Positions 971 through 30,955 of a stretch of DNA of 31,362 nt are shown piece after piece. Within the stretch, counting starts at the first letter, position 1. Each line of letters opens with the position of its first letter. The notes below the pieces were generated by a model. The model was not told the DNA's origin. It saw nothing but the letters and a program-made list of their open reading frames with translations, and did no database searches. Both the position numbers and the translations under genes were made by a program. Origin of the DNA: a virus; the IMG/VR virus record IMGVR_UViG_3300044640_000276, positions 1 to 31,362 of that record. The stretch is one strand, 5' to 3'.

Positions 971-2716
971 TTATTTTGGTAAAAATCCTTTATTTGGCAT
1001 ATTAACAGGCTTAGTGTAAACCAATTTGTTATTTGCTGGTAATATCTCACCTTGCTTTCTTGCCTGTGCAGGTGTCACTTCTTTTGCTCCCTTTCTTCTA
1101 GGATCAATAAACCTTTTATAGGTTTCTCTTGTCCAAAAATGATGACAAGCTCCGCCTCCTTTATACAAGAAAATATCATAGGTATCTGCGCCTTTGGGAC
1201 CCCAACCTTCGTTAACTGGAGTTTGACTCATACGCATAATATCTTCTTTACGATATAGCTTATTTGCGGCAGTCATTTTTTTGCAAAACTCCCTGCTCTT
1301 TTCAGTTGTATCCCCAGAATAACGGTATCTTGACATAAATAATTTACCATCTTGATCTGAACCAATATTAGGTCTTGCAACTCCTGTACTTACAAACTCA
1401 TATATCTTTGACAATAACGATTTCTTAGGGTTGTTTAATGCCTCTAATTCTGCGTCTAACTGCGCTTCTGTCTCTATGTCAACAACTCTTGAATCTACTA
1501 ATTCCCATTCGTTTAAATCAATGTCTTCGCCAAACTCTTCTACGTTTAATTGATCAATATGAGAAGATAAAGCAACACCAGTTTTTTCTTGCAATTCATC
1601 TTTACTTACATTAGGGTTTAAATCAATAAACTCCAATGGTTGCAAGGTCTTAAAATAAAGATTTAAACTGATTTTATTGTAAGCTAATACCTTATTAATG
1701 CCATCAATAAATGTATCTTGGAAATAACGAATAACCATGTTGTCAAACAAAGTAATTGCGTTCTTTAATTCATCTGCATTAGAACTAAATCCATTTGCAC
1801 TTGGAATACCAAATTGCAAACCACTTACAACACCATGACCCAAAAGAATCTTTGTTTTTGATTCTTCTGATAAATATTCATAATGCTTTGGTGCCTCATT
1901 TAAAGGAACTGAATCAACGGTAGTCTTTTTCGTTTCATCATTGTTAAATGATACAACTACTTTTTTCCCTTTAGAACCTGTAAGTGTTTTTGTTACTTGT
2001 CGTGAAATTAACTCTCTTTTCTCTTCATCTGGAATTCCATTATTAAAGTTAACAATGCTTGTAGGACTAAATCCATTTTGCACATCGTTAATTAAATAAT
2101 CTGCTATTTCTTCTTCCAATTTAGCATAAGGAATACAACCAACATAGTCAACATTTGAATAATACTTTTGACCTACCGTATAATTTCCAACGTAAAGAAT
2201 TTCTAGGGTTTTATCTCCAAATCCAAATGCAGAAATACGCTTAGGAACAAATTTTTTTGTGTCTTCCCAATTATCAGAATAATAATATGCCTCAATCTCT
2301 CCTTTGCTATTACATTTCTCAGCTCTTAAAAGTTGTACTGGGATATGCTCAACTCTTACAATTTCAGTTTTTTGCTTGTTATAAATTAATTGAAACGCAT
2401 ATTGGCCTAATAGCTTTAAATCAGCAACACCCTTCTTAATTACATCCTTTCTAAATAGCATCACCATTTGTGCGTATTCATTAGGCTTCTTACTTGAATC
2501 GGTAGCATCTAAGCCACGACCATAAATCAACTTGACAATGTTGTTTATTACCGCATTGTTTGTTGTTGATCCGTTATATCTGTCAATTAAAAATTGGAAA
2601 AAGTTATTGTCTTCCCCAAATTCAACCCAATTATCTCGCTTTGATTCCACGATTTTAGGTTGTGAGTATGCCTCCAACTGAATAAAATGTGAATTTAAAT
2701 GATCTCTCTTATTCAT
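971..2716 (-). CDS. Portal protein with C-terminal Cys/His-rich head domain
   Basis: At 581 residues this is long for a portal of this group. Residues about 1-390 have portal character: an N-terminal WVEFGEDNNFFQFLIDRYNG segment, a helical stem and wing region, and KTKILLGHGVVSGLQFGIP. Residues about 455-560 form a separate domain with SREFCKKMTAANKLYRKED, GPKGADTYDIFLYKGGGACHH and FWTRETYKRF. Such domains occur at the ends of Bacteroidota phage head proteins and recall the Cys/His end of MuF-type minor head proteins. I infer a portal fused to a minor-head-like domain. The ATG overlaps the upstream gene by 8 bp, and the connector gene follows after 3 bp. Confidence 0.8.
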   Translation of the reverse strand: MNKRDHLNSHFIQLEAYSQPKIVESKRDNWVEFGEDNNFFQFLIDRYNGSTTNNAVINNIVKLIYGRGLDATDSSKKPNEYAQMVMLFRKDVIKKGVADLKLLGQYAFQLIYNKQKTEIVRVEHIPVQLLRAEKCNSKGEIEAYYYSDNWEDTKKFVPKRISAFGFGDKTLEILYVGNYTVGQKYYSNVDYVGCIPYAKLEEEIADYLINDVQNGFSPTSIVNFNNGIPDEEKRELISRQVTKTLTGSKGKKVVVSFNNDETKKTTVDSVPLNEAPKHYEYLSEESKTKILLGHGVVSGLQFGIPSANGFSSNADELKNAITLFDNMVIRYFQDTFIDGINKVLAYNKISLNLYFKTLQPLEFIDLNPNVSKDELQEKTGVALSSHIDQLNVEEFGEDIDLNEWELVDSRVVDIETEAQLDAELEALNNPKKSLLSKIYEFVSTGVARPNIGSDQDGKLFMSRYRYSGDTTEKSREFCKKMTAANKLYRKEDIMRMSQTPVNEGWGPKGADTYDIFLYKGGGACHHFWTRETYKRFIDPRRKGAKEVTPAQARKQGEILPANNKLVYTKPVNMPNKGFLPK

Positions 2717-3059
2717 AGAATATTATTGAATCTGAATTGCTTGTATATGTACCTGCGTTTACAGAATAAGTATCTGGAATTTGATTGGTACAAAAAACCT
2801 TAATGTTATTAACTAGATGGTAATCTAATACATTATTAATTACCCCGTAATATTTAATTTTAAAAGAATAAAAATGTCCTTCTTCTAAATCAAAAATCAT
2901 TTTAAATGTACTAAAAAAACTTTTCTTCTTGCAATTTATCTTATGAGATGTTTCAACATTTGTTGTTTCATTCGTGATAAATAGATAATTGGCATCACTT
3001 ATTCTTGTTGGGATAAACGAAACCTCTTGATTGCTTGCGGAAGATTTTAAAACGATCAT
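2709..3059 (-). CDS. Small structural protein of unknown role
   Basis: This 116-residue protein is probably all beta. It has repeated aromatic strands (FYSFKIKYYG, IKVFCTNQIPDTYSVNAGTYTS) and ends in IIFYE. Related small proteins with an FCTNQ...YSVN...YE ending occur in Bacteroidota phage structural clusters, but I know no assigned function. It follows the terminator at 3102-3123 and has the 12-base motif at 3061-3072, one base before its ATG, so it may begin a transcript that also covers the portal. Its end overlaps the portal start by 8 bp. Confidence 0.6.
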   Translation of the reverse strand: MIVLKSSASNQEVSFIPTRISDANYLFITNETTNVETSHKINCKKKSFFSTFKMIFDLEEGHFYSFKIKYYGVINNVLDYHLVNNIKVFCTNQIPDTYSVNAGTYTSNSDSIIFYE

Positions 3060-3060
3060 A

Positions 3061-3072
3061 ATGTATAAACGT
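3061..3072 (-). promoter_or_regulatory. Start-proximal 12-base motif, copy 1
   Basis: On the minus strand the sequence is ACGTTTATACAT followed by one base and the ATG at 3059. The same 12-mer is at the same distance before the genes starting at 6089 and 15099. It lies between the terminator at 3102-3123 and the next gene, where a promoter is needed. TACGTTTA/AACGTTTA resembles the Bacteroidota TAnnTTTG -7 element except for the last base. Confidence 0.5.
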
Positions 3073-3101
3073 TAAAAATTAGTTTTGTTTTCTTTTTAAC
3101 G

Positions 3102-3123
3102 AAAAAAGGGGGACTCTGCCCCC
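3102..3123 (-). terminator. Rho-independent terminator after tail-tube gene
   Basis: On the minus strand GGGGG, a six-base loop (CAGAGT) and CCCCC are followed by six T residues. It lies 29 bases beyond the stop of the gene at 3152-3682. The perfect GC stem with a U-tract makes this a strong intrinsic terminator acting on minus-strand transcription. Confidence 0.85.
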
Positions 3124-3151
3124 TAATTTCAACCCAAACAAACAAAAATTA

Positions 3152-3682
3152 TTATACTCCAGATGTAACCGTTACGCCAGCAGCGGTTAAGGTAGTTGTG
3201 ATAAAGTTTGCTGGTACTGGCTCTTCGCCTACAATTGTTAGTGTGTAGCCAGACATATCGCCCATCGCTGCACCTGTAACTATTGTACCTCCTGTAACAT
3301 CAAGACCGTTCTTTAAACCGCAATAGAAAAGGTTTCCATTGTTATCTTCAACGATTGCTTGTGGTCTACCAAATGCAAGTAATTTAATTTGCCTATGGTC
3401 TTTAATTGATAATTGCTTTAAACTTAAATTTAAAGTTTGTGTAAAAAAAGTAGTTCCGTTTTCACGAGATGAATTGACCGTTTGCTCAAATGAACTTGAT
3501 CCTCTCAAATCATATTTGAATCCGATTGGAGTTCCTGCAATAGCAGAAATTGCATCTGTATTAGTTACATCATAAGTAACTCCAGTTGCATCTCCTTCAT
3601 TAATAAAATAAACTGCTTTTAATCCACCAACACTTGTTTTGCAGGGTTCTAATCTCCCCAAAGAAATATCGCATCCAGGCAT
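3152..3682 (-). CDS. Putative major tail tube protein
   Basis: This 176-residue protein is Gly/Thr-rich with beta character. Its C-terminal part, FYCGLKNGLDVTGGTIVTG, then GDMSGYTLTIVGEE, has the feel of phage tail tube proteins, in which a strand pair and a GE(E) turn follow a conserved GG-T-G-G-D stretch. It lies directly after the capsid gene and is flanked by strong terminators on both sides, as expected for a highly expressed structural gene. The N-terminus MPGCDISLGRLEPC contains two Cys. It could instead be a capsid decoration protein; the tail-tube reading is favoured because no other tube candidate is visible. Confidence 0.55.
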   Translation of the reverse strand: MPGCDISLGRLEPCKTSVGGLKAVYFINEGDATGVTYDVTNTDAISAIAGTPIGFKYDLRGSSSFEQTVNSSRENGTTFFTQTLNLSLKQLSIKDHRQIKLLAFGRPQAIVEDNNGNLFYCGLKNGLDVTGGTIVTGAAMGDMSGYTLTIVGEEPVPANFITTTLTAAGVTVTSGV

Positions 3683-3740: not shown

Positions 3741-4694
3741 TTAGTTAGCAGCGTTTGTGATACCGTAAGTAACAATATCAGAAGCAAATCCGTATTGTAC
3801 ACCAGCAGTCATACGCATTACTACACGCACATTTTGTGAGCCATCAATGTCAGCCATATCAATAACCTTAACTTCTGTCAAATCAGAGATAAGACCAGTA
3901 CCGAAATACAAGTTAGATTTTTGAGTAGCGATTGCCTTTGTAGAAGCAAGACCATCAGCAACAAACAATTTGATACCATCAAAAGTTAGAGAACCATTGT
4001 TGTACCATTGAGTTCCCATTGCGTTTGTACCATTAGCTCCTAAGCCTGATGCTCCAAATCCACCTAAAGAACGGATGTAAGCACGAGCCATTGCTTGTGA
4101 AACGTAGATGTAAAGATCATCCTTAGTGTACAAAGAAGATGGGATAGCGTCTGCAATCTTGCCTAATTCAGCAACGATAGTTGAAGAAGAAACCGCAGCT
4201 CCAGCAATTTCTTGACCTGATGGCAATGAAGCATCAGCAGCCAATAATGTAGAAATACCATCAAACTCGCCTGCGTTAGCAGTAACACCTTCCCAGATGT
4301 TTGTCTCATTCTTTGCAGCAACTTTAGCAGCAACGTGTGCAACTAAGAAGTCAGCAAAAGACTTAGGCAATGTTTTGAAGGCAGAAAATCCTTGCTCTAC
4401 TGACAACCAATCAGAAGCAAAGTCTTTCTTACATAATTGCAAGTTAACTTGAAATTCTTCTGGTTGTAAAATCTTTTCAGTCAAAGTAACTGTCGATGTT
4501 GCATCGAAATCACAAGTAGCATTTTTCAAGATGGCATCAGTACCAACTCTTTTGATAACTTGCTTAAAACGTACATTTGGTTTTACTTCAATACCACCAC
4601 GATCGATAGTAGGAGAAGATAGCAATGAAGCCGCAATGATTTTATTTGCGTATTCACCTGCGTAAGTTGTGGTAATACTTGTTGTAGTAGCCAT
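3741..4694 (-). CDS. Major capsid protein
   Basis: This 317-residue protein is compatible in size with an HK97-fold capsid subunit. It starts MATTTSITTTYAGEYANKI and has a long N-terminal arm, then ILQPEEFQVNLQLCKKDFAS, a spine-helix-like stretch (FADFLVAHVAAKVAAKNETN), and a beta-rich C-terminus ending DIVTYGITNAAN. It is preceded by scaffold and protease genes and followed directly by a strong terminator, the usual setting of a capsid gene. Codon use favours common Thr/Ala/Ser codons, suggesting high expression. The HK97 fold is inferred from context and length. Confidence 0.8.
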   Translation of the reverse strand: MATTTSITTTYAGEYANKIIAASLLSSPTIDRGGIEVKPNVRFKQVIKRVGTDAILKNATCDFDATSTVTLTEKILQPEEFQVNLQLCKKDFASDWLSVEQGFSAFKTLPKSFADFLVAHVAAKVAAKNETNIWEGVTANAGEFDGISTLLAADASLPSGQEIAGAAVSSSTIVAELGKIADAIPSSLYTKDDLYIYVSQAMARAYIRSLGGFGASGLGANGTNAMGTQWYNNGSLTFDGIKLFVADGLASTKAIATQKSNLYFGTGLISDLTEVKVIDMADIDGSQNVRVVMRMTAGVQYGFASDIVTYGITNAAN

Positions 4695-4711
4695 TTTTTA
4701 TTAAAATTAAT

Positions 4712-5317
4712 TTAGTTGAACATTTTATCATAAACCTTATCTTGGATTGTTTCTGGTCTGTTTTGACCGAAAGAAAATCCTTGCACTTTTCCATCTGATT
4801 CTGGATTCTGAACAATTGGCTCAGCACCTTCTTCATTTGAATTTAACTTAACTTCTAATGCTTCTTTTTCTGATTTCAAAGACTCATTTTCCGCTTTAAC
4901 TTCATTAATCTGTAAAGACAATTCAGCTCTTAATTTCTCAATTTCTGCAAAGAAAGTTTCCTTGCTAACTGATTCAACCACGCGTTTTGCTTGTGGTGCA
5001 GGCGCTTGTGGTGCAGCTTGTGCCTCCACTTCAACCTCTACTTCTGGTGTTGCTGCTTCTTCTTCTTCGATTTCAGCCTCTTTAACTTCAGCTATAATCC
5101 CTTCAACTGCAACTACCAAAACCATTCCATCTTCCAATGCGTACTCGCCTACTGGCATAGGTACAACACCATCAGCAGTAACAATACCAACAGAAAATTC
5201 AGGTGCAAACTCTTCCGCTTCGATTACGGTAACTCCGTCTTCTAGCTTCATCTGCGCCAAATTAACCTGAAAGCCCAATACTGCTTTAACCCGATTTTTT
5301 GTGCTTTTGTATTCCAT
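4712..5317 (-). CDS. Putative scaffolding protein
   Basis: This 201-residue protein is acidic in its first half, with Glu-rich runs (AEVKEAEIEEEEAATPEVEV). It then has a Pro/Ala/Gln linker at about residues 100-112, and a coiled-coil helix (about 118-160) with heptad-like Leu/Glu spacing, ending in a basic-hydrophobic tail (DKVYDKMFN). That is the usual scaffold layout, with the C-terminal end contacting the capsid shell. It sits between the prohead protease and the major capsid gene, 17 bp before the latter. Function is inferred from composition and position. Confidence 0.7.
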   Translation of the reverse strand: MEYKSTKNRVKAVLGFQVNLAQMKLEDGVTVIEAEEFAPEFSVGIVTADGVVPMPVGEYALEDGMVLVVAVEGIIAEVKEAEIEEEEAATPEVEVEVEAQAAPQAPAPQAKRVVESVSKETFFAEIEKLRAELSLQINEVKAENESLKSEKEALEVKLNSNEEGAEPIVQNPESDGKVQGFSFGQNRPETIQDKVYDKMFN

Positions 5318-6128: not shown

Positions 6129-7625
6129 CTAGCCCAAACTTGCAGTCATCACTTTATTTCTGTCCAACGATTGTTGTGAGCTTATTTCAGAGCCTACAAC
6201 ATAAGCCTTTATAGGTTGTTGATTTTGACCTACTACTTGTGCAATTTGATTGACCCCGCCAGTTCCAACAACATTAAATTGTGGAGAAGTAGAATAGCTT
6301 GCAGTCATCTGCTGATTTCCAAAAGACATACTACTTCCGCTTACAGCTCCAGAACGAATATCCTGAATTCCTTTTGCACCTGCTTTTGCTGCCGCTAATC
6401 CTGCTGCAATATCAGCTGCCAATCCAATATATGCTAATGGACTTTTAAAACCTCCATTTGCAACAAAGTTTTTCTTTGCGTTCATAGCAATACTTGTAAT
6501 CGCAGCAGATTGTTCTAAGATAATCCCTGCAATTGCTAACTCCTTGTTTTGGCCAGCTATTTGTCTTAAACCCTGTCCAAGTCGTATTGCATTATTAATA
6601 TATGCTTGTTGAATATTTGCTTTTGTTTGTGCTTCTGTTTGTGCAATATTAATTAATTCATCAGATTTCTTTTTTTCTAATGCTATCTCACGATCAATAT
6701 TATCTGTCAAAGATTTAAATAATACTTTGGTTACATTTTTTTGACTTTCTTGTAATTTTTCAAAATGACGTGAGTTTATTTTAGATATCTTAGATATGCG
6801 GTCATTGTAGTCTCTCTCGTCTTCTTCTTGCCTTTTATCAATTATTTTTTGAGTTTGTTCTACGGATTTCTTAAAGTCTTCTTCTTGCTTTTTATTAGCT
6901 TCAATTCTTGCTAATCGTCTTTTCTCGCTTTCTTCTTTTTCTTTTTTTGTTAACTCTTTGCTTCCTTTATTAAATCTTTCAACTGATGCTTCATAATTTT
7001 TCCCAAAATCAGTTACAGATGCTTTTGCATCTTGCCAAGCACCGCTAAAATCCCCTTTAATAAATTTAACAACTGCGCTTCCAAGACTACCTAATGATTG
7101 CACAACTGCAAAAACAGAACTATATACAACCGAAAATGCATCAGAAACCAAAGGCAATGCACTAACTGCCAAATCTACTAACGTATTAAATAAAGGCTCA
7201 ACGATTGAAAAAATACCATTAAATATTTTTTCTAATCCTTCAAATAAAGGTTGTAATTTTTTAACTGCTTTTTCATTATTATTAAATGCAGCTGCTAAAC
7301 CACCAATTAACCCAACTATTAAACCAATAACAGATGCTTTTAAAACTCCGTTAAATGAAGAGAAAGTTTTTTCAGCACTTCTTATGCCTTTACCTAATAT
7401 GCCTAATGGTCCTTCTGCGTTTTCTAAATATCCCAGAAAGTCATCAGATGTGGCCGATGCGTCTTTAATTGAATCATCTAAATCCCGAATTTGAGCAGAC
7501 AAACGATTAAATTCATCAGAGCCAGCGGCAGTATCCTTTAGCTGTCTTTTTAATCTTTTTAAATTAGCTATTGTAGGTTCAATATTATTATTAATATTTA
7601 CATCTACTTCTACTTCTGTTGCCAT
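6129..7625 (-). CDS. Tape measure protein
   Basis: This 498-residue protein has the usual tape-measure order. Residues 1-60 are a helical start (IEPTIANLKRLKRQLKD...LSAQIRDLDDSIKDA). A hydrophobic Gly-rich segment at about 95-113 (VIGLIVGLIGGLAAAF) follows, then a second hydrophobic part at about 140-190. A long charged coiled coil (about 220-335) is rich in KKEKEESEKRR-type stretches, and Ala/Gly-rich helices (about 385-425) precede a Gln/Ser-rich end. Tape measures set siphovirus tail length at roughly 0.15 nm per residue, so a short tail near 75 nm would be expected. The gene follows the large tail proteins and precedes the head genes. Confidence 0.75.
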   Translation of the reverse strand: MATEVEVDVNINNNIEPTIANLKRLKRQLKDTAAGSDEFNRLSAQIRDLDDSIKDASATSDDFLGYLENAEGPLGILGKGIRSAEKTFSSFNGVLKASVIGLIVGLIGGLAAAFNNNEKAVKKLQPLFEGLEKIFNGIFSIVEPLFNTLVDLAVSALPLVSDAFSVVYSSVFAVVQSLGSLGSAVVKFIKGDFSGAWQDAKASVTDFGKNYEASVERFNKGSKELTKKEKEESEKRRLARIEANKKQEEDFKKSVEQTQKIIDKRQEEDERDYNDRISKISKINSRHFEKLQESQKNVTKVLFKSLTDNIDREIALEKKKSDELINIAQTEAQTKANIQQAYINNAIRLGQGLRQIAGQNKELAIAGIILEQSAAITSIAMNAKKNFVANGGFKSPLAYIGLAADIAAGLAAAKAGAKGIQDIRSGAVSGSSMSFGNQQMTASYSTSPQFNVVGTGGVNQIAQVVGQNQQPIKAYVVGSEISSQQSLDRNKVMTASLG

Positions 7626-7762
7626 TTTATTTGTCTTTTAATTTGCTTAAACCCGTTTTTCCAAGTTTTTGGAATTTCATTTTTACCCTTTGCAATCTCT
7701 ATTGATTCGTGTTTTCCATAATGCTCTCTAATCATTAATAGATCTAATATGTTCTTTATCAT
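7610..7762 (-). CDS. Small basic protein upstream of tape measure
   Basis: A 50-residue reading frame fills the space between the glycosyltransferase-like gene and the tape measure gene, overlapping the latter's start by 16 bp. It begins MIKNILDLLMIREHYGKHES and ends in a Lys-rich helix. The ATG lies just inside a partial copy of the start-associated motif (ACGTTTAT at 7761-7768), preceded by an AAGACAAAAACAAACAA stretch also found before the gene at 15099. Small basic proteins next to tape measures can be tail-assembly factors, but here the function is unknown. Confidence 0.5.
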   Translation of the reverse strand: MIKNILDLLMIREHYGKHESIEIAKGKNEIPKTWKNGFKQIKRQIKWQQK

Positions 7763-7786
7763 AAACGTAAATTGTTTGTTTTTGTC

Positions 7787-8710
7787 TTATAATAATGGGG
7801 AATTTAACCCTGCCTTTTGCACTTCTTGGTAATAATAATAACTGCTTTTCTTCTTATCTAAATCTAAAAAGGTATTATAAGGTAACTTATTTACAAATTC
7901 CCCTTTATAAAACATTCCAGTTTTTGAATCTGTAACACCAGCATTATGAAGAATCTTATATTTAACCGTATCTGATATATCGTTTGTGGACCAGCCAAAA
8001 TCCATTTCCTTAACTACCTTCGTTTGATGCCCAAAAAACCATGCATTGTAAAGCAATGACCACATGCCAGCAGTCCATTTCTGTATTGGATAATCATTTT
8101 CATACTTAGGCACATACAAATGCTCTATATTGCAGAAATATTGATATAACTTAATTGAATCCTTTTCTACTTTATCCCAAAAATTAAAATCAGTTCCCTT
8201 TACAATGTATTGTGCGCCTCCGCTATGATCGTTCATTAGCTTAGGAATCAAAGTAGGTATTCCAACTATCCTGCACATTTCAATCAATATATCTTCACCC
8301 TTCTGCATTACATAGTCATAATTAATATAACTATTCGTGTCGCTTAAATACCAAACTCTGTCTTTTTCAAACTTTGAATAATCTGGTGGTCCTGTAAATA
8401 CTATATCTGAATCATGCAAAAACAAAACTTCATCTTTTAAAGACGGATTAGATGCAATATGTTGTTTTATAAGATTAAAATAGATGGCTGGAATATAACC
8501 GCTATTTTCTCTTGTATCCTTATAAAAGAAAAACCTTATAGTATTATGATGTTGTTGTAATATTCGCCATTTGCTTAAATCTTCATTGTTGTAACCCAGC
8601 ACAATATCAATTTGATTAGGGTTAATACCATGCGAAATGAAATTATTTATGACGGTTTCTATTTGCCATAAATAATAATCATTCGCAGGTTGACAACAAA
8701 TATATCTCAT
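7787..8710 (-). CDS. Glycosyltransferase-like protein (GT-A type)
   Basis: From the chosen start (MRYICCQPANDYYLWQIETV) the protein has 307 residues. A longer frame to 8737 exists, but the internal ATG lies one base after the stop of the upstream gene (TAG-T-ATG), and AAGGAAG sits 11 bases before it, so re-initiation is likely. The key motif is DEVLFLHDSDIVFTGPPDY with D100-S101-D102, the DxD metal and sugar-nucleotide motif of GT-A enzymes. HDSDIVF before a Pro-rich turn is typical of family 2/8-like folds. A later WTAGMWSLLYNAWFFGH may form the acceptor side. It probably transfers a sugar to a protein or surface glycan; the adjacent Thr-tract protein is the obvious candidate acceptor (inference). 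Confidence 0.65.
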   Translation of the reverse strand: MRYICCQPANDYYLWQIETVINNFISHGINPNQIDIVLGYNNEDLSKWRILQQHHNTIRFFFYKDTRENSGYIPAIYFNLIKQHIASNPSLKDEVLFLHDSDIVFTGPPDYSKFEKDRVWYLSDTNSYINYDYVMQKGEDILIEMCRIVGIPTLIPKLMNDHSGGAQYIVKGTDFNFWDKVEKDSIKLYQYFCNIEHLYVPKYENDYPIQKWTAGMWSLLYNAWFFGHQTKVVKEMDFGWSTNDISDTVKYKILHNAGVTDSKTGMFYKGEFVNKLPYNTFLDLDKKKSSYYYYQEVQKAGLNSPLL

Positions 8711-8711
8711 A

Positions 8712-11700
8712 CTATGAACAACTTCCTTGTGGCCCATCTACCGTAATTGCACCACCAGCGCTAACGGTTCCAATTCTTGCGCAAATTGTAAGACTACCAC
8801 CACCTTGTAATTCTACATTTGTATTTTGAGTACCATCACAAGATTGATAATCATAATAATCTGCAAACTCATCACTATTTGACAAGAAGTATTGCTGACA
8901 ATTAGGACCAGCCGTAGTTGTAGTTGTTGTCGTTGGTGCAGCGGTAGTTGTAGTTGTTGTTGTCGGTGCCGCAGTTGTCGTAGTAGTTGTGGTAGTCGTA
9001 GTAGTAGTTGGTGGTACAAATCCACAAGCTGGAGAATTAAATTGTATTGGTAAATTGTAAGTTCCGCAACTTCCATTAGCGTAAGTCCCAATCAAATCAA
9101 ATCCAGAGCAGAATGTAGACAACAAAGTTCCATTAGGAGTACAAGTCGTAGTCGTAGTAGTCGTAGTTGGCGCAGCAGTTGTCGTAGTTGTAGTCGTTGG
9201 AGTACAAGAACTAGCTACAATACTATTAATTTGATTGCTAAAGTTAGTATGTGATTGAGATTGTAAATATCTTAAAATACCGTCACCGTTCAAAATATAG
9301 AATCCGTTTGCATAGCTAGTGTATGCAAAGAAAGGTATTGGATTAAATGTGCTACAATCGCCATTATTAACATCATATCTTAAATATGTAAATACTGGTG
9401 CCGCAGTAGTTGTAGTAGTAGTTGTTGGCGGAGCAGTTGTAGTCGTGGTTGTTGTTGGACATCCAGTTAATCCTGTTGCAGTAATTGGAATTAAACTACC
9501 TGCTGGTTGATTAAATCTAACTTCTTCAATTGTAAAGAATGCACCACCAAATGTTACACGATCATTTAAATTAAATGTGCCAATATTATAAGATTGTGAA
9601 TACAATGTATCTCCGTTTATGCAAGCTCTAAGTCTGTACCAAACTACCTGTATTGTAGTCGTAGTAGTAGTTGTTGTTGTAGTTGCGCAAGTAACTTGAA
9701 TTGATTTAGCAACTGCGTTACCAGTATTATTGGCATCCCTTACCACAATCCACCATAAGCCATCTCCAACACTAAGATAATTTTTAGGCGCAGTAGCACT
9801 AACAAATGAACCTGTAAAGGCATTTACTTGTGATGTGTAAACGGTATCAGATGCTTGATATGTACCGCTGCCTCCACTAAATGCATCAATTGTTACCGTA
9901 CCAGAACCGCCAGAACAATTATTAACTATTGTAAAGTTAACTTGTGGCAATGTTGTAGTTGTAGTTGTAGTTGTAGTTGTTGTAGGGCAATTTTGTTGCG
10001 CAAAAACCAATTGAATATTAGTTCCTATTGTGCCAGGACTTGTTGTAGTTGTATTGTCCCAAACATAGAATACCTGAGTAACCGAATCAATATATCTTTG
10101 ACTTACTAAATTAGGAGTTATTGCTGTGTACAATTGTCCAAATCCAGCCGAACAAGCATCTAGCTTGTAATATGTTGTTGGCGTTGCCGTTGTTGTACTA
10201 GTAGTTGTAGTGGTACTTGTACTTGTTGTTGGCGCTGCTGTAGTTGTGCTTGTAGTTGTACTAGTTGTGCTAGTAGAAGTAGTTGGAGCAGCAGTAGTTG
10301 TGGTAGTCGTATTATTATCTAAAACAATAGATCTAAAATCAGACATTAATTCAAGACTTGTTTCTCCAGTTGTTAATTCAGTTTGATAAGAATTAATAAT
10401 ATATCGTTTGTCCCTAATTACAATTTTATCATTTAATGCAAGTTTTGATAAAAGAAAAATCGGTAATATTGACTTGATTTTCATTAGTCTAGCCTTCTGA
10501 TTAAAGGTGTTTGATAAGTAAGCTGAATAGTAATTATTAAACAATGAATTAGTTTCAACTAGGTTAGTATAAGTTGATTGCTCCGCTCCCCAATTAATAG
10601 TATTTACCGCAGAGGACACTAAAGTATCTTGCCCAAATAAATTATAAGTTGTGGCCGTTGCAGTTGATGTGCCGTCATTAAAATAATATGTCTTAGGTGA
10701 TGTTAATGTTTGCACAACCCCATAATCATAAAGAATAACAGGCTTAGGAACATAAGCCGTTAAATCTGATTTAATTGAATACCCTACTTGTAAATTTGTG
10801 TCTGTAAATTTGGTAAAAGGCATATTCTCAAATGGTAATTCAATTGCAAATTCACCACCGTCATTATCAACTTCATATTTTAAATCGCCATAAGGAATAT
10901 CAGATTGAGCAAGAAAAGCCGTTGCTAATAAGTTCTCGCAATCTTGGTAACTAAAATTAATAGTTTTAAAAGGATTTACTCTTTCTAAATCTATTTGATC
11001 TGTTTGGCAATATTCAGATATATCATAAGTTTGGCCTGCTGAATACCATTCTTCTAATTGCTCAATTTGATAAGTAGTTTCATCAATTGAATAGCAAGTA
11101 AGATTAAACATTTTTAGTAAACCACTAAAGAAATCTTCTGCTTTTAATTCTGGCATATAACCAGCAACATCTAAAATACTATTAGTAGTTTGACTTGTTG
11201 CTCTTATTGCATTTACATCTGTAGTGATGTTCCCGCTTCCATCTCTAAGCTCTAATTTATAATTAGCCGTAAAAGTTACTGGAACTAAAGAAGAAATATA
11301 AAATGTATAAGCTCCTGTGTTATTTAATGGAGCTGTAAACGTCATTAAACTTGTCTGCGTTAAAAATTGCTGTTCATTTATTTTAACTCCGTTCTTATAA
11401 ACGTAAAAAATAAACTCAATTCCTGAAACGCTAAAAGTTAATTCAATATTTGAAGAACTTAAATATATTGGCAATGTAGGCTCAACATAATTTAACGTAT
11501 TTGTAAATGCATTAAATATGCCTTGTGTTCCTACCGTACTTGTAGCAGACTGAAAATCTATTATGTTTGGAAAAGAATTTTGAACAAATACATCTGTATT
11601 TTTTAGCCACAAAAAAGCATTTGTAAATTTTGGATTACTTAAAAATGAACCACTAAATGTGACTCCTATTTCAGTTGCAATAGATTCTAAAATCTTGCTT

Positions 11701-12305
11701 ATTCTCATTGCTGGGAATAAATCTAAATATGAAATTGGCGTTGCCGTTTTACTTATATCCCAGTTGCTTTGGCTTGTTCCGTTAGTGTCATATTGCCAAA
11801 CATTTTTAGAAGATATTAAAGGGAATTTTACATCGTTAGTAACACCACCAGCAACTCTGTTTTTAACTACTGCGCCTGTGTATGTAAAGTTGTACTGTGA
11901 ATAATCAAAATCCCTTAAAAATCTATTTTGAAATTTATCTTTTAAAGATATTAAGGTGCCAAAAAATGTCAAGGTATAATTATCTATATCACCTTGTTTA
12001 TAACTTGCTTTTTCTAATTGTATTTTCCCTTTTCTAAAGGTTAATGTATCTAATTCAATATATGCATCTTTTCTTTTGTTTGCATTGAATCCAGAATCCA
12101 AAGCATTTTCATACCAATGTTTAAAGATTGCGTTATTAGTCTTTGTTGCAGGAACGGTAAAAGATTGGCTAAAATCTGTAAAGACTTTAGATATATCATT
12201 TATATTTTGAATTGAGCTATTGATTGAGATATTTTCATCCTCAAACAATTCTAGTCTTTTTGCTAATCCATCATCCCCGTAAACAAAAATAGAAACATTA
12301 ATCAT
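8712..12305 (-). CDS. Large tail protein with mucin-like Thr tracts and Cys-paired modules
   Basis: This 1197-residue protein has two parts. Residues 1 to about 660 are a tail protein: MINVSIFVYGDDGLAKRLEL, then KVFTDFSQSFTVPATKTNN and many aromatic beta strands, resembling baseplate or tail-tip proteins placed after gp10-like genes in Bacteroidota phages. Residues about 661-1197 alternate six Thr-rich tracts (with AAP breaks) with six compact modules of about 40-95 residues. Modules 1-4 each have exactly two Cys, one near each end; modules 5 and 6 have four. The Thr tracts look like extended, possibly O-glycosylated stalks. Its start overlaps the upstream tail gene by 4 bp, and a glycosyltransferase-like gene follows at once. 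Likely a receptor-binding or display protein at the tail tip. Confidence 0.7.
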   Translation of the reverse strand: MINVSIFVYGDDGLAKRLELFEDENISINSSIQNINDISKVFTDFSQSFTVPATKTNNAIFKHWYENALDSGFNANKRKDAYIELDTLTFRKGKIQLEKASYKQGDIDNYTLTFFGTLISLKDKFQNRFLRDFDYSQYNFTYTGAVVKNRVAGGVTNDVKFPLISSKNVWQYDTNGTSQSNWDISKTATPISYLDLFPAMRISKILESIATEIGVTFSGSFLSNPKFTNAFLWLKNTDVFVQNSFPNIIDFQSATSTVGTQGIFNAFTNTLNYVEPTLPIYLSSSNIELTFSVSGIEFIFYVYKNGVKINEQQFLTQTSLMTFTAPLNNTGAYTFYISSLVPVTFTANYKLELRDGSGNITTDVNAIRATSQTTNSILDVAGYMPELKAEDFFSGLLKMFNLTCYSIDETTYQIEQLEEWYSAGQTYDISEYCQTDQIDLERVNPFKTINFSYQDCENLLATAFLAQSDIPYGDLKYEVDNDGGEFAIELPFENMPFTKFTDTNLQVGYSIKSDLTAYVPKPVILYDYGVVQTLTSPKTYYFNDGTSTATATTYNLFGQDTLVSSAVNTINWGAEQSTYTNLVETNSLFNNYYSAYLSNTFNQKARLMKIKSILPIFLLSKLALNDKIVIRDKRYIINSYQTELTTGETSLELMSDFRSIVLDNNTTTTTTAAPTTSTSTTSTTTSTTTAAPTTSTSTTTTTSTTTATPTTYYKLDACSAGFGQLYTAITPNLVSQRYIDSVTQVFYVWDNTTTTSPGTIGTNIQLVFAQQNCPTTTTTTTTTTTLPQVNFTIVNNCSGGSGTVTIDAFSGGSGTYQASDTVYTSQVNAFTGSFVSATAPKNYLSVGDGLWWIVVRDANNTGNAVAKSIQVTCATTTTTTTTTTIQVVWYRLRACINGDTLYSQSYNIGTFNLNDRVTFGGAFFTIEEVRFNQPAGSLIPITATGLTGCPTTTTTTTAPPTTTTTTTAAPVFTYLRYDVNNGDCSTFNPIPFFAYTSYANGFYILNGDGILRYLQSQSHTNFSNQINSIVASSCTPTTTTTTTAAPTTTTTTTTCTPNGTLLSTFCSGFDLIGTYANGSCGTYNLPIQFNSPACGFVPPTTTTTTTTTTTTAAPTTTTTTTAAPTTTTTTTAGPNCQQYFLSNSDEFADYYDYQSCDGTQNTNVELQGGGSLTICARIGTVSAGGAITVDGPQGSCS
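8907..10310. repeat. Triplet-repeat Thr-codon tracts (six)
   Basis: Six runs of Thr codons (ACN; GTN on the plus strand) lie at about 8907-9015, 9143-9201, 9398-9460, 9653-9685, 9951-9984 and 10170-10310, inside the large tail gene. Codons ACA, ACT and ACG are mixed, so the DNA is an imperfect triplet repeat. Such tracts can expand or shrink by three bases without frameshift. Confidence 0.85.
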
Positions 12306-16333: not shown

Positions 16334-16688
16334 CCTTGAATTTCACCAAATCACTAAGGTTAAAATCTTTTACTTCGTGTGTATTATTGCTTTCAACGTG
16401 CGTCATTGATAACTGCTTTAATTCGTCTGGCGATGCAATCAGCTTCATCAATCCCATCTGTAAGGTTGGATTCTCTGACTTATACCATTTAGAACGCATT
16501 GATACCTTAATCTCTGTCTTTACTTTTGTAAGCGCATCTTTTATGGTGTCTAATTTTTCTAATTCGAGATTGTAAAACGTTGCTCTTGAACACGGAAGGT
16601 ATGCGATGACATCGTCAATAAAGAATAGTTTGTTTTTCTCAATTGCCTCTAATGCTTTTGTTTCTAATTCTTTTGGATTATACGCCAT
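16314..16688 (-). CDS. terS: Terminase small subunit
   Basis: This 124-residue protein has an N-terminal helix-turn-helix ([19 protein letters not shown]), a middle helical region ([18 protein letters not shown]) and a charged C-terminus. It sits directly before terL with an overlap, as small terminase subunits do, and would recognise the phage packaging site and recruit TerL. Its start overlaps the methyltransferase gene by 11 bp, so no separate promoter is visible. Confidence 0.85.
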
Positions 16689-17775
16689 AAGGTTGTCCGT
16701 TCTTTTTAATTACTAATGTTGAATCTAATTTTTGCATTCGGTCGACAATTACTTGACAATACTTTGGGTCAAACTCCATCAAATAAGATTTTATTCCTAA
16801 TTGTTCGGCAGTAACCATTGTAACACCAGAACCACCAAATAAATCTGCTATTGTTTTAATTTTATCTTTAGTTTTATCAATACACCACTTTACTAATGAA
16901 ACAGGTTTTTGAGTTGGATGCACTCGATTTGTTTTTTCAGATGCTTGAGTAAATTGTCTTACAACAGATCTAATATTTGTCCAAGCTAATTCGCAATCTG
17001 TTTGGTCGCTTCCTCCATTATTTTTATCCCAAACAAGCCAGCACTCACTATCAGGTAAGTTGCTTGAGTAATAATTTGCACCCCACCAAATGTGATGTGA
17101 TTTAGGATACATTGAATAAATTAAATTAAAACTATCTCTTGCAACATCCGTATTGTCATCTCCTAAAATATCGGTTCCGTATTTTTCTTTTAATACTCCA
17201 GATTTACTTACCGCGTTCATTCCATAAGGAGGATCTGTATGAATTAAATCAGGAATAATTCCGCTCATCAATTTGTCAATATCTTGTACGGATGTTGAAT
17301 CTCCGCACATTAATCTATGCTCTCCTATTTCAAATAAATCCCCAATTACAATATCTGTTTCTATTACATTTGGGGCATCGTAATTATCTTCTTCTGCCGT
17401 TCCTTCGTCTTTAATATCAAATACTGGCAAATCTAATCCCCATGCTTCAAGCTCATCTGTATCCCATTCGTTGGCAATCATATCCCAGTCCCATTCGCCT
17501 CCGCTTGTATTATCCTTAATAAGAAATTCTCTCTGTTTCTCCTCTGATAAATCGGTAACAATAACTGGTATCTCTTTAATGCCAGCTTCTTTGCAAGCTC
17601 TGTACCGCATATTTCCCCCTAAAATAATCATGTCCTTATTAACCACAATCGGTCTGATATCTAACATCTCAGGAAAATCCTTAATCGACTGAACTAACTT
17701 CTTAAATTTATCATCCTTAATTAATCTAGGATTATTAGGATTTAATTTAATGTCAGATATTTTCTTTATTTCCAT
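16678..17775 (-). CDS. ParB-domain / DNA methyltransferase fusion
   Basis: Start chosen at [17 protein letters not shown] (365 residues); a longer frame reaches 17817 but its first 14 residues are not typical. Residues about 1-95 form a ParB/Srx-like domain with [15 protein letters not shown] (GxxRxxA motif, 53-60). Residues about 140-365 form an N4-cytosine/N6-adenine methyltransferase: catalytic DPPY at 181-184, HPTQKP at 286-291 and SAM-binding DLFGGSG at 311-317. Catalytic motif before SAM motif is the beta-class order. No restriction enzyme is nearby, so it is probably an orphan that protects phage DNA or marks packaging/replication sites. ParB-methylase fusions are known in phages. Confidence 0.9.
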
Positions 17776-17780
17776 TGTAT

Positions 17781-17963
17781 TTATATAAGGTACATTTCCT
17801 CTTTGACAAGTTTCCAATAAATCTTGTCATCTATTTTTAACTTCTGATCAATAACTAATTCAATAATGTATAAGCCACATTGAATAGCCATTGCTTTGGT
17901 GCCTGTATAATAAAGGCAATTTATAAATATCTCCCTTGCTTTTTCGTTAGGCTTCATTATCAT
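17781..17963 (-). CDS. Small helical protein, unknown function
   Basis: This 60-residue protein begins [19 protein letters not shown] (a second ATG at 17957 would give MKPNEKA) and continues [16 protein letters not shown] with an acidic-basic end ([12 protein letters not shown]). Similar short proteins with a KAxEIF...AxxCxxYxIxxxI pattern are widespread in Bacteroidota phages without known function. It overlaps the upstream gene by 17 bp. Confidence 0.6.
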
Positions 17964-27781: not shown

Positions 27782-30700
27782 TTATTTGTTTTCCAATAAT
27801 GTAATTTTAGCAGAAAGTTCTTGAATGGCTTTGACCATTACAGGGACAATTTTAGAATAATCTACACCTTGCATTTGTTCTCCGTCTTTTATTCCATTTA
27901 CTGCGTATGGTAATACTTCTTGTAATTCGTGAGCAAGCACACCATCCATTCTACTATTATCAGCTTTCCACTTATAGTCGTAAACTTTTATAGCAGAAAC
28001 TTTGTCTAAACCTTTAATTTCTTTTAAGTCTTCTTTAAGCCTGTAATCAGAAGTTACATTATAAGAAGTCGTTGCAGTTGTAACTGAGATTGAACCTACT
28101 TCAACAGTTTGTCTATAAAAAACTAAAGTTTTACCATCTGAGGATAATCTATTTAAATGTAAAGCTTCTCCAGCTCTTGTAATTTGTACCAAACCAATCG
28201 CATCACCTCTAAATTGAAAGCCTTCAGCTGCTAAATCTTGAGTAGTTTTACCCATCAATACATTGCCATTTGAGCCAATAAATAATTTAGTTGCAGAATT
28301 ATAACCAATGTATAAGTTATTATCTCCTCCGTGTACCCATTGCCAAGTATTTCCAGCTATGTTCTTTAAGCTATAACCAAATCCAAAATTATCAGTAGAT
28401 TGTTGTACTTCTAGTCTAGCGCTAGGCGAACTCGTTCCAATACCTACGTTGCCTCCTCCTTGATTTAAAATTAAATTATTAGTTACAGACTCGCCTGCTG
28501 AATAGGCATTTATTGTAGAATAAGTATTCCCGCTTGCTGCTCCAAATCCTATTCTTAATGCAGACCCAGTATTGCTATTGTTAAAATCAGAAGTTTGGAA
28601 ACGTAAAACTCTACCTCCGCCATCTGCAATGACTTGTAATCCAATAGAAACTCCAGTACCATTATTTATTAATAATCTAGGAGTATTATATCCCCCAGAT
28701 GTAGCATTAACAAATACTGTTGTAGCATCGTCAAAAATTAATGAGTTTCCAATAGCGCTACTTGAAGTCCATTTAGCATGATAGTTTGTCGTACCTGTTC
28801 CAGTAACTGGATTAGTAAGTACCGCTTGATACTGTGGAATATTTAAAGTATTAGAAGTAAGTGTCGCAGCTCCCGAAGTTCCAGTAGTTGTAAGCGTTAT
28901 TGCGCCTTGCTTACTATTAAAAGTAGACCAATCCGTAGAACTTAAAAATCCATCAGTAGAACCAGAAGATTGCGTAATACCAATTGCTCCTGTTGAATTA
29001 TTGTAAGTAATTGGTGCGCTACCACTTAATGAAGCTAAAGTAATTCCACCTAACCCACTTAATGTATAAGTAGGAATATTTAGTACGTTAGAAACTAATG
29101 TAGCACTACCACTTGATCCTGTTGTAGTAAGCGATGTAATTCTATTTGTATAAGCAGTATTCCAATTTGTAGCACTTGCAATATAGGCATCTGCTAAATC
29201 TGTATTTAAATGTAATTCATCTAACAAAGTAACACCTCCTGTTATAGATGCTGCGTTTCCACTACCGCTTGTTTTAACAACCGTTAATGCTTCGCCACTA
29301 CCACCTTTGGTAATTGATGCCGCAACACCGCTACCGCTAACATGATTAATTACTAAGTCGGAAGCCGTTAATCTATGCGTTCCTAAATTTACATTTGTAG
29401 TTGCTCCAGTATAAGGCACATAACCAGATAAGTCAGGTGCATAATTTGGAATATTTAAAGTATTAGAAATAAAAGTTGCAGCTCCGCTTGTTCCTGTTGT
29501 AGTTAATGTAATATCATCTTGCTTTGCATTTAAAGCATTCTGTAAGTCAGTTTGATTAGATAATGTTCCTGTAATTCCACCCCATATTGTTCCAACCGTA
29601 GGAGAAACTTCAATGTATGTAGCACCAGACCAACGATAAATCTTATTTGTGTCTAATGCAACGTAAATCTTACCAGTTGCTCCACTTGCAGGAAATGCTG
29701 CTAAATCAGCAAACTCTAAAACATCATCTACATAAGATGGCAATTGAGTTGATGGTACTAAGCCTCCGCCATCAAGGCTTGCATATCCATTAGCAACACC
29801 TTTGTTTGCTGCGTTCTCTGGTGTATATCCTAAGGCAGTCGTAACATTACCGCTGGTAATTCCGCTAATATATCCACTTGGATTTGTTGCATCATAAGGT
29901 GTGTAACCTAAAGCAGTTGTTACATTGCCACTTGTTAATGATAATGTACCGCCTAATGTAAGATTTCCGCTTGTAGTAACCGTTCCACTTAAAGACAAAC
30001 CACTAACTGTTCCTGTGCCACCAACAGATGTTACCGTTCCTACATTAGTAGTATAACCGCTTGGATTTGAAGCATCATACTTTAAGTTTAAAGCCGTTTG
30101 TGTCGCAGTACTAATTGGTTTTAGTAAATCCGTAGTATTGTCAACATTACCTAAACCAACCATTGATTTAGTGATACCTGAAACCGTACCAGTAAACGTA
30201 GGCGAAGCCAAAGGTGCTTTAGTATCTAATGCAGTTTGAGTTGCAGAGCTGATTGGCTTATTTACATCGCTTGTATTGTCAACATTGCCCAATCCTACCA
30301 TCGCCTTTGTAATGCCACTTACCGTACCTGTAAAAGTCGGAGATGCAATAGGTGCCTTTGTGTCTAAACTTGTCTGCGTAGCGGAACTAATTGGTTTATT
30401 GACATCTGATGTGTTGTCTACGTTTCCTAAACCTACCATTGCTTTAGTAACTCCGCTGACTGTGCCTGTAAATGTAGGGGATGCAATTGGTGCCTTTAAA
30501 TCTAAAGCATTCTGTGTCGCAGTTGAAACAGGCTTATTGACATCACTTGTATTATCTACATTTGATAAGCCAACCATTGATTTGGTAATTCCGCTAACCG
30601 TTCCTGTAAAAGTTGGAGAAGTTAATGGTGCTTTAGCATTTAAAGCATTTTGCAAATCTGTTTGTCCTGATAATGTTCCTGTGATTTGACCCCACGCAAC

Positions 30701-30955
30701 AACCGCACTTGAATTTATTTGAGTATAAGCAGAACCGCTCCAACGATACATTAAACTTGTATCATTAATAACATAAAGAGTTGTTGTATCTCCAGTAATA
30801 GGCAAAGCACTAAATGTACTTGCTAAAAAATAATTTGATCCAATAATATTCCCAGATGTTTGAGAAACATTGATTGAAACTAAATTAGGAGTTACATTAA
30901 GTTGAACGTTATCGGAATTATCGGTAACTACTATATCAATAATATCGTTTGCCAT
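27782..30955 (-). CDS. Tail fibre with S74 auto-chaperone domain
   Basis: This 1057-residue protein starts MANDIIDIVVTDNSDNVQLN. Residues about 41-108 and again about 415-480 share a module (YRWSGS/A, then W-G-ITGTLS-QTDLQNALNAK). Residues 105-288 are four 46-residue repeats (SPTFTGTVSG, GNVDNTSDVNKP), typical of phage fibre shafts. The C-terminal S74 intramolecular chaperone begins at SDYRLKED: Ser969 and Lys974 form the S-x4-K catalytic dyad, and VLAHELQEVLP is the family's conserved block. The domain is predicted to trimerise the fibre and then cut itself off at Ser969. It likely binds the host surface. Confidence 0.85.
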   Translation of the reverse strand: MANDIIDIVVTDNSDNVQLNVTPNLVSINVSQTSGNIIGSNYFLASTFSALPITGDTTTLYVINDTSLMYRWSGSAYTQINSSAVVAWGQITGTLSGQTDLQNALNAKAPLTSPTFTGTVSGITKSMVGLSNVDNTSDVNKPVSTATQNALDLKAPIASPTFTGTVSGVTKAMVGLGNVDNTSDVNKPISSATQTSLDTKAPIASPTFTGTVSGITKAMVGLGNVDNTSDVNKPISSATQTALDTKAPLASPTFTGTVSGITKSMVGLGNVDNTTDLLKPISTATQTALNLKYDASNPSGYTTNVGTVTSVGGTGTVSGLSLSGTVTTSGNLTLGGTLSLTSGNVTTALGYTPYDATNPSGYISGITSGNVTTALGYTPENAANKGVANGYASLDGGGLVPSTQLPSYVDDVLEFADLAAFPASGATGKIYVALDTNKIYRWSGATYIEVSPTVGTIWGGITGTLSNQTDLQNALNAKQDDITLTTTGTSGAATFISNTLNIPNYAPDLSGYVPYTGATTNVNLGTHRLTASDLVINHVSGSGVAASITKGGSGEALTVVKTSGSGNAASITGGVTLLDELHLNTDLADAYIASATNWNTAYTNRITSLTTTGSSGSATLVSNVLNIPTYTLSGLGGITLASLSGSAPITYNNSTGAIGITQSSGSTDGFLSSTDWSTFNSKQGAITLTTTGTSGAATLTSNTLNIPQYQAVLTNPVTGTGTTNYHAKWTSSSAIGNSLIFDDATTVFVNATSGGYNTPRLLINNGTGVSIGLQVIADGGGRVLRFQTSDFNNSNTGSALRIGFGAASGNTYSTINAYSAGESVTNNLILNQGGGNVGIGTSSPSARLEVQQSTDNFGFGYSLKNIAGNTWQWVHGGDNNLYIGYNSATKLFIGSNGNVLMGKTTQDLAAEGFQFRGDAIGLVQITRAGEALHLNRLSSDGKTLVFYRQTVEVGSISVTTATTSYNVTSDYRLKEDLKEIKGLDKVSAIKVYDYKWKADNSRMDGVLAHELQEVLPYAVNGIKDGEQMQGVDYSKIVPVMVKAIQELSAKITLLENK
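30092..30643. repeat. Four tandem 138-bp repeats in fibre gene
   Basis: Four in-frame units of 138 bp encode residues 105-150, 151-196, 197-242 and 243-288 of the fibre. Each carries SPTFTGTVSG and NVDNT. The protein repeats are near identical, while the DNA has diverged at synonymous sites, so the expansion is not recent. Confidence 0.8.

Follow-up and report, generated by a model that had tools for sequence, protein, structure and literature searches.

Glycosylation of phage virion proteins is documented for a few mycobacteriophages. In phages Che8, Corndog and Myrna, glycosyltransferases of their own are reported to attach glycans to the C-termini of capsid and tail-tube subunits, and the resulting virion glycans are reported to protect the particle against antibodies (Freeman et al., 2023, cited in PMC12619734 and PMC12363180). 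The locus described here would, if our reading is correct, represent a second virion-glycosylation system, unrelated to that of the mycobacteriophages and apparently widespread in phages of the Bacteroidota and Bacillota.

The window (the whole stretch of DNA analysed) is a 31.4-kb virus record with its structural genes on the minus strand. One of these genes (8712..12305, minus strand) encodes a tail protein of 1197 aa, residues 11–671 of which match phrog_38559 (E-value, 1.5e-69), a family whose function is not known. When an AlphaFold2 model of the N-terminal 658 aa (10332..12305, minus strand; pLDDT 76.7) was searched with Foldseek, it matched the MuSo2 43-kDa tail protein (E-value, 2.5e-5), the PVC central spike (2.6e-5) and Mu gp44 (2e-3), and with moderate confidence the modelled part can be likened to a hub of the baseplate or tail tip that carries a C1q-like jelly-roll insert. 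The C-terminal half is mucin-like, with low-complexity tracts rich in Thr, Ser and Pro that are broken by AAP or APP. The original prediction had described six Thr tracts with AAP breaks, and runs of at least five Thr are indeed present in six clusters between residues 666 and 1131, with small domains between them (all on the minus strand): a mixed Thr/Ser cluster with AAP at residues 666–711 (10173..10310), T11 at 775–785 (9951..9983), T10 at 875–884 (9654..9683), T7-APP-T7 at 951–967 (9405..9455), T7-AAP-T8 at 1037–1054 (9144..9197) and T12-AAP-T7-AAP-T7 at 1100–1131 (8913..9008). These runs hold 87 Thr residues encoded by a mixture of codons (41 ACT, 29 ACA, 12 ACG and 5 ACC), so the tracts are not a simple DNA microsatellite; an origin by slippage can be discarded, since the tracts use a mixture of all four codons and since the tags persist at the protein level on unrelated genes. 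There is no Thr run of at least five in any other ORF of the window. A 1057-aa fibre-like protein (27782-30955), which lacks such runs, ends in a Peptidase_S74 intramolecular chaperone, and a 379-aa ORF (16678-17817) matches both ParB-like and DNA methyltransferase PHROGs and is a ParB–methyltransferase fusion.

The stop codon of the tail-protein gene (TAG, 8714-8712) is followed, one base further on and as originally noted, by the start codon of the next gene (ATG, 8710-8708), forming the junction TAG-T-ATG (8708..8714, minus strand); a tape-measure-like gene comes after this second gene. An alternative, longer in-frame start is present at 8737, and because the entire family aligns from the ATG at 8710 we take the product to be 307 aa long (7787..8710, minus strand). 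It belongs to phrog_4417 (E-value, 8.6e-70; residues 10–309 of the 316-aa ORF against positions 1–291 of the 293 in the profile), which is listed as of unknown function; proteins of this family are also annotated as 'prophage pi2 protein 34'. An alignment of the enzyme with 38 relatives (alignment A2) was used to build an AlphaFold2 model, which is compact and has a pLDDT of 95.0 and a pTM of 0.92. The 50 PDB matches listed by Foldseek are all GT-A glycosyltransferases (best E-value, 4e-7; all at or below 1.1e-5), among them glycogenin, UGGT, LARGE1, the Skp1 galactosyltransferase Gat1, α-1,3-galactosyltransferase, WbbM and a few others, with glycogenin, UGGT and the Skp1 enzyme the nearest; the enzyme shares about 10 % sequence identity with characterised glycosyltransferases, at a TM score of about 0.5. 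By its predicted structure, the 307-aa protein is a GT-A-fold glycosyltransferase.

Three motifs stand out in the alignment of the 38 relatives, within all of which the named residues are invariant: DSD at residues 100–102 (8405..8413, minus strand; D100 and D102), a DxD motif of the kind that binds metal and nucleotide-sugar; GGAQ at 164–167 (8210..8221, minus strand; G165, A166 and Q167); and HNAG at 255–258 (7937..7948, minus strand; H255, N256 and G258). Placed by eye, DSD, GAQ and HNxG follow the same order as the DxD, NSG and HxxG landmarks of GT8, and by analogy with HxxG the HNAG motif probably provides the third metal ligand. No Pfam or NCBIfam profile matches the window enzyme at curated thresholds; the GT8 profile Glyco_transf_8 in particular gives no match to it and none above the cut-off in the 38 relatives, and no characterised homologue was found by sequence in PDB sequences, Pfam or NCBIfam. 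The original prediction had called this product a GT-A-like protein with a DSD metal motif and had offered structure prediction as a check; the predicted GT-A fold, the invariant DxD, the C-terminal HNxG and the UDP-sugar enzymes found as closest structures all agree with it.

Close relatives of the enzyme were found at 80 viral loci of the Bacteroidota type, 77 of which have enough sequence to judge. In 62 of the 77 the enzyme start is preceded by a Thr-tract ORF that ends at most about 75 bp before it, and in another 11 such an ORF lies 0.7–5.4 kb away; no clear Thr run is seen in the other four (two truncated copies of a single locus, L043, and two with Ser/Thr tracts). The Thr-tract ORFs beside the enzyme range from 175 to 1663 aa, and the neighbour is therefore not one conserved protein. 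A tblastn search of isolate phages matched 74 records, with hosts from Chryseobacterium to Lactobacillus, Enterococcus, Staphylococcus and Lactococcus, and in all 16 isolates inspected in detail a Thr-rich tag (TVKPTTVAPTT in SAC12B) forms the end of a capsid protein, of a tail or decoration protein, or of both, or else of a frameshifted extension of such a protein. Tags are likewise present at 31 of 31 Bacillota genomic loci with the enzyme, and at 80 of 80 enzyme loci in a further viral scan (78 by an automatic criterion and two by eye). The enzyme thus occurs almost only together with Thr runs on capsid and tail proteins, in phages of two bacterial phyla. The suggestion that the two genes form a widespread unrecognised pair in Bacteroidota phages was right but too narrow, as the pair is also common in Bacillota phages, where it is mostly capsid and tail-tube proteins that are tagged. 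At L215/L499 and L567 the enzyme gene is split over several frames and the Thr tags are retained; these broken genes represent decaying prophages or sequencing errors.

In Bacillota phages the tract takes the form of a short tag at the C-terminus, and a single phage bears it on unrelated proteins, such as capsid, connector and tail tube; the PHROG calls of tagged proteins include major head protein, head–tail adaptor, decoration-like major head protein, tail-tube and major tail protein. Thr runs of at least five in phages phiFL2B, iLp84, 1706 (first 50 kb) and VPE25 (50 kb) lie in virion genes, the exceptions being a gene annotated as a holin (1706) and a single 76-aa ORF (VPE25). The tag need not be C-terminal, since one head–tail adaptor (L283:4746-5096) has its Thr run at the N-terminus (MADETTTTTTTTTD). 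GenBank gives the label 'major tail protein' to gp49 of phiFL2B (L083:4345-5909), which is the enzyme, and the neighbouring gp48 ends in a Thr tag; the label appears to be misplaced, and gp48 looks like the true tail protein.

We note that in several phages the long Thr tag is encoded in another frame than the capsid or major tail gene whose end it overlaps (L573:5770-5889, L086:4725-4880, L199:3029-3214, L084:4667-4930 and L574:4956-5207), and that most of these tag frames have no usable start codon. The capsid gene of Enterococcus phage 9183 ends in C CCA AAA GGG TAG, a canonical −1 heptamer; those of VPE25 and a Listeria fleischmannii prophage end in AAG TAA (−1), and the major tail protein genes of Staphylococcus phages SA2 and PT1-4 end in CCC TAA (+1). 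These gene ends suggest that in several phages programmed frameshifting may tag only a fraction of the subunits.

A further comparison is provided by homologous virion proteins that either have or lack the tag. Among homologues of the tail hub, the enzyme is present with 19 of 19 tracted proteins (those with a readable next gene), whereas 46 of 46 tractless ones (those with at least 1 kb downstream) lack it; these include phages that have neither tracts nor enzyme despite a terminase 91 % identical to the window's, although the comparison comprises few independent events, as it is essentially one clade against another. The tracts go well beyond what chance would give: within 80 loci of TerL relatives they are likewise found only in the enzyme-bearing clade. 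For the major tail protein of Enterococcus phiFL-type phages, tag and enzyme occur together in 3/3 and neither is present in 11/11, the tagged phages also carrying it on their capsid protein. The phi13-like major tail proteins offer the largest set, with tag and enzyme in 14/14 against neither in 57/57 (Fisher p=4e-15); their tree requires at least nine label changes, three of them forced by well-supported branches, and all independent pairs are concordant. The enzyme has not moved elsewhere in the untagged phages, in that no phrog_4417 is present anywhere in the 25 untagged records searched whole, a search for which 50 viral records with a nine-Thr pattern served as the positive control. Enzyme and tags have been gained and lost together, with no exception within three virion-protein families. 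Co-occurrence in relatives had been named in the original prediction as a check, and in these families, where co-variation is complete, the tracts are not kept without the enzyme.

Those 50 records had been picked solely because their DNA matches a pattern of nine Thr codons (T9); phrog_4417 is present in 11 and absent from 39, many of the latter being fragments. The proposition that Thr tracts always accompany phrog_4417 can thus be rejected, as only 11 of the 50 have the enzyme and several others have GT2 or GT4 genes instead. One locus, L498, keeps a single tagged connector and has no enzyme. Among the records without phrog_4417, two encode capsid, connector and/or tail proteins with poly-Thr tags (L357, at 2363-3622 and 10034-10609; L298, at 4643-5215, 6674-7264 and 7554-8531) and have GT4 or GT2 genes, which suggests that such phages may have convergent systems.

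The enzyme probably O-glycosylates poly-Thr tags of its own phage's virion proteins. The fold, invariant motifs, genetic linkage and co-variation of tag and enzyme were computed, and from them we infer catalysis and O-linkage to threonine; the predicted fold and the co-variation support the central claim of the original prediction, that the enzyme acts on the Thr tracts of its own phage. It would act as a metal-dependent glycosyltransferase in the cytoplasm of the infected cell, taking a nucleotide-activated sugar from the host, the likely identity being a UDP-linked one, and O-linking it to threonines of the long tracts. The acceptor in the window phage would be the mucin-like C-terminal stalk of the tail-tip hub-like protein; in the related phages of Bacillota it would be the short poly-Thr tag found at the C-termini of capsid, connector, decoration and tail-tube proteins. 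The tract would thus be a portable glycosylation tag with which the enzyme gene travels. In other phages the enzyme is fused to a class-I methyltransferase (L036:7001-8641, Methyltransf_24; L056:6235-7677), a GT2 domain (a weak match; L070:7001-8755) or a radical-SAM/SPASM domain (L078:7001-8998, in a 274-kb phage contig), and these extra domains probably modify the glycan further in some phages. A glycan coat of this kind could serve in shielding, solubility, stability or adhesion. The original prediction had suggested sticking to host or mucus surfaces or concealment of the tail; the tags on capsids point to a general coat rather than to adhesion by the tail tip alone.

It could be argued that host enzymes add the first sugar to the Thr tracts and that the phage enzyme merely extends or caps it, since many GT-A enzymes transfer sugar onto sugar, and some of the Foldseek neighbours (LARGE1, α-1,3-galactosyltransferase and Gat1) extend existing glycans. 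We consider this unlikely: the enzyme is usually the sole linked glycosyltransferase, in hosts that span Bacteroidota, Lactococcus and Clostridium, for which we know of no shared general O-glycosylation system, and untagged relatives from the same host groups lack the enzyme. Direct glycosylation by the phage enzyme is also favoured over a role for the protein as a glycosyltransferase-fold chaperone, or as another type of transferase (nucleotidyl- or phospho-), acting on poly-Thr without any sugar. The lack of a characterised homologue by sequence would accord with such a role, but the DxD and HNxG motifs are invariant, the closest folds among the matches listed are all glycosyltransferases, and the fusions to GT2 and methyltransferase domains are typical of glycan pathways, so that we regard it as very unlikely. 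Phage glycosyltransferases that modify O-antigen or teichoic acid are well known, but there is scarcely any likelihood that this enzyme modifies the host surface (in serotype conversion or superinfection exclusion) beside Thr tracts that are unmodified spacers, as its gene sits within the structural operon at nearly every locus inspected, occurs in both lytic phages and prophages, encodes a compact predicted structure without a membrane-anchor-like extension, and is gained and lost jointly with the tags.

With virion glycosylation by the enzyme as the preferred reading, we lean slightly towards a broader view, in which poly-Thr is a portable tag read by phrog_4417 on any virion protein in phages of two phyla, with the dose of tagged subunits set in some phages by programmed frameshifting at the end of the capsid or tail gene, and with other phages having evolved this tag alongside unrelated GT2 or GT4 enzymes. 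Glycosylation of the tags would account for the homopolymeric Thr tails on unrelated capsid and tail proteins and would make a testable enzyme family of a PHROG listed without a function. The pair is present in the well-studied dairy and enterococcal phages 1706, bIL285, iLp84, phiFL and VPE25, in which the enzyme is annotated as hypothetical. In 1706, orf10 and orf13 end in T9HHD and T10HHD and the enzyme gene is orf14; in bIL285, a prophage of L. lactis IL1403, it is orf45. A full-text literature search, with preprints outside its scope, found no description of the enzyme and Thr-tag pair, and an earlier description is possible. If correct, the reading would offer glycobiology a simple, short acceptor tag and would bear on particle stability, adsorption and recognition.

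In serine-rich-repeat adhesins (with GtfA/B and accessory enzymes) and in mucins, a low-complexity Ser/Thr domain is a dense O-glycan acceptor, and its enzyme gene lies beside it. The adhesins are exported and use the GT-B pair GtfA/B, whereas the putative acceptors here are phage virion proteins of almost pure Thr in their tracts, with one soluble GT-A enzyme. The retaining GT8/GT-A enzymes (glycogenin, UGGT and Gat1) share the GT-A fold, the DxD and the C-terminal HNxG/HxxG landmark with the window enzyme, but its linear motifs (GGAQ, QKWTAxMW and HNAGV) differ from theirs. The mycobacteriophage system likewise has phage-encoded glycosyltransferases, with glycans reported at the C-termini of capsid and tail-tube subunits; in the window system, genetic linkage and co-variation tie the enzyme to its putative acceptors. 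A fusion of a glycosyltransferase with Methyltransf_24 is common to Che8 (gp108) and the phrog_4417 family (L036). The Che8 enzymes (gp108, GT2 plus methyltransferase; gp109, GT2; gp110, GT25-like) are nevertheless unrelated to the phrog_4417 family, hhalign of alignment A2 against gp110 giving a probability of 0.1, and membership in the mycobacteriophage enzyme families can be rejected, the enzymes not being homologous; there is no mycobacteriophage among the 74 isolates matched by tblastn. The Che8 capsid and major tail protein end in ...NKTGS and ...YSDGS, without poly-Thr, whereas phrog_4417 phages have the Thr tag, and Che8 has a three-gene cluster far from its structural genes where phrog_4417 is one gene adjoining its presumed acceptor. 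The process is probably like that of the mycobacteriophages, while the enzyme, the acceptor and the hosts differ.
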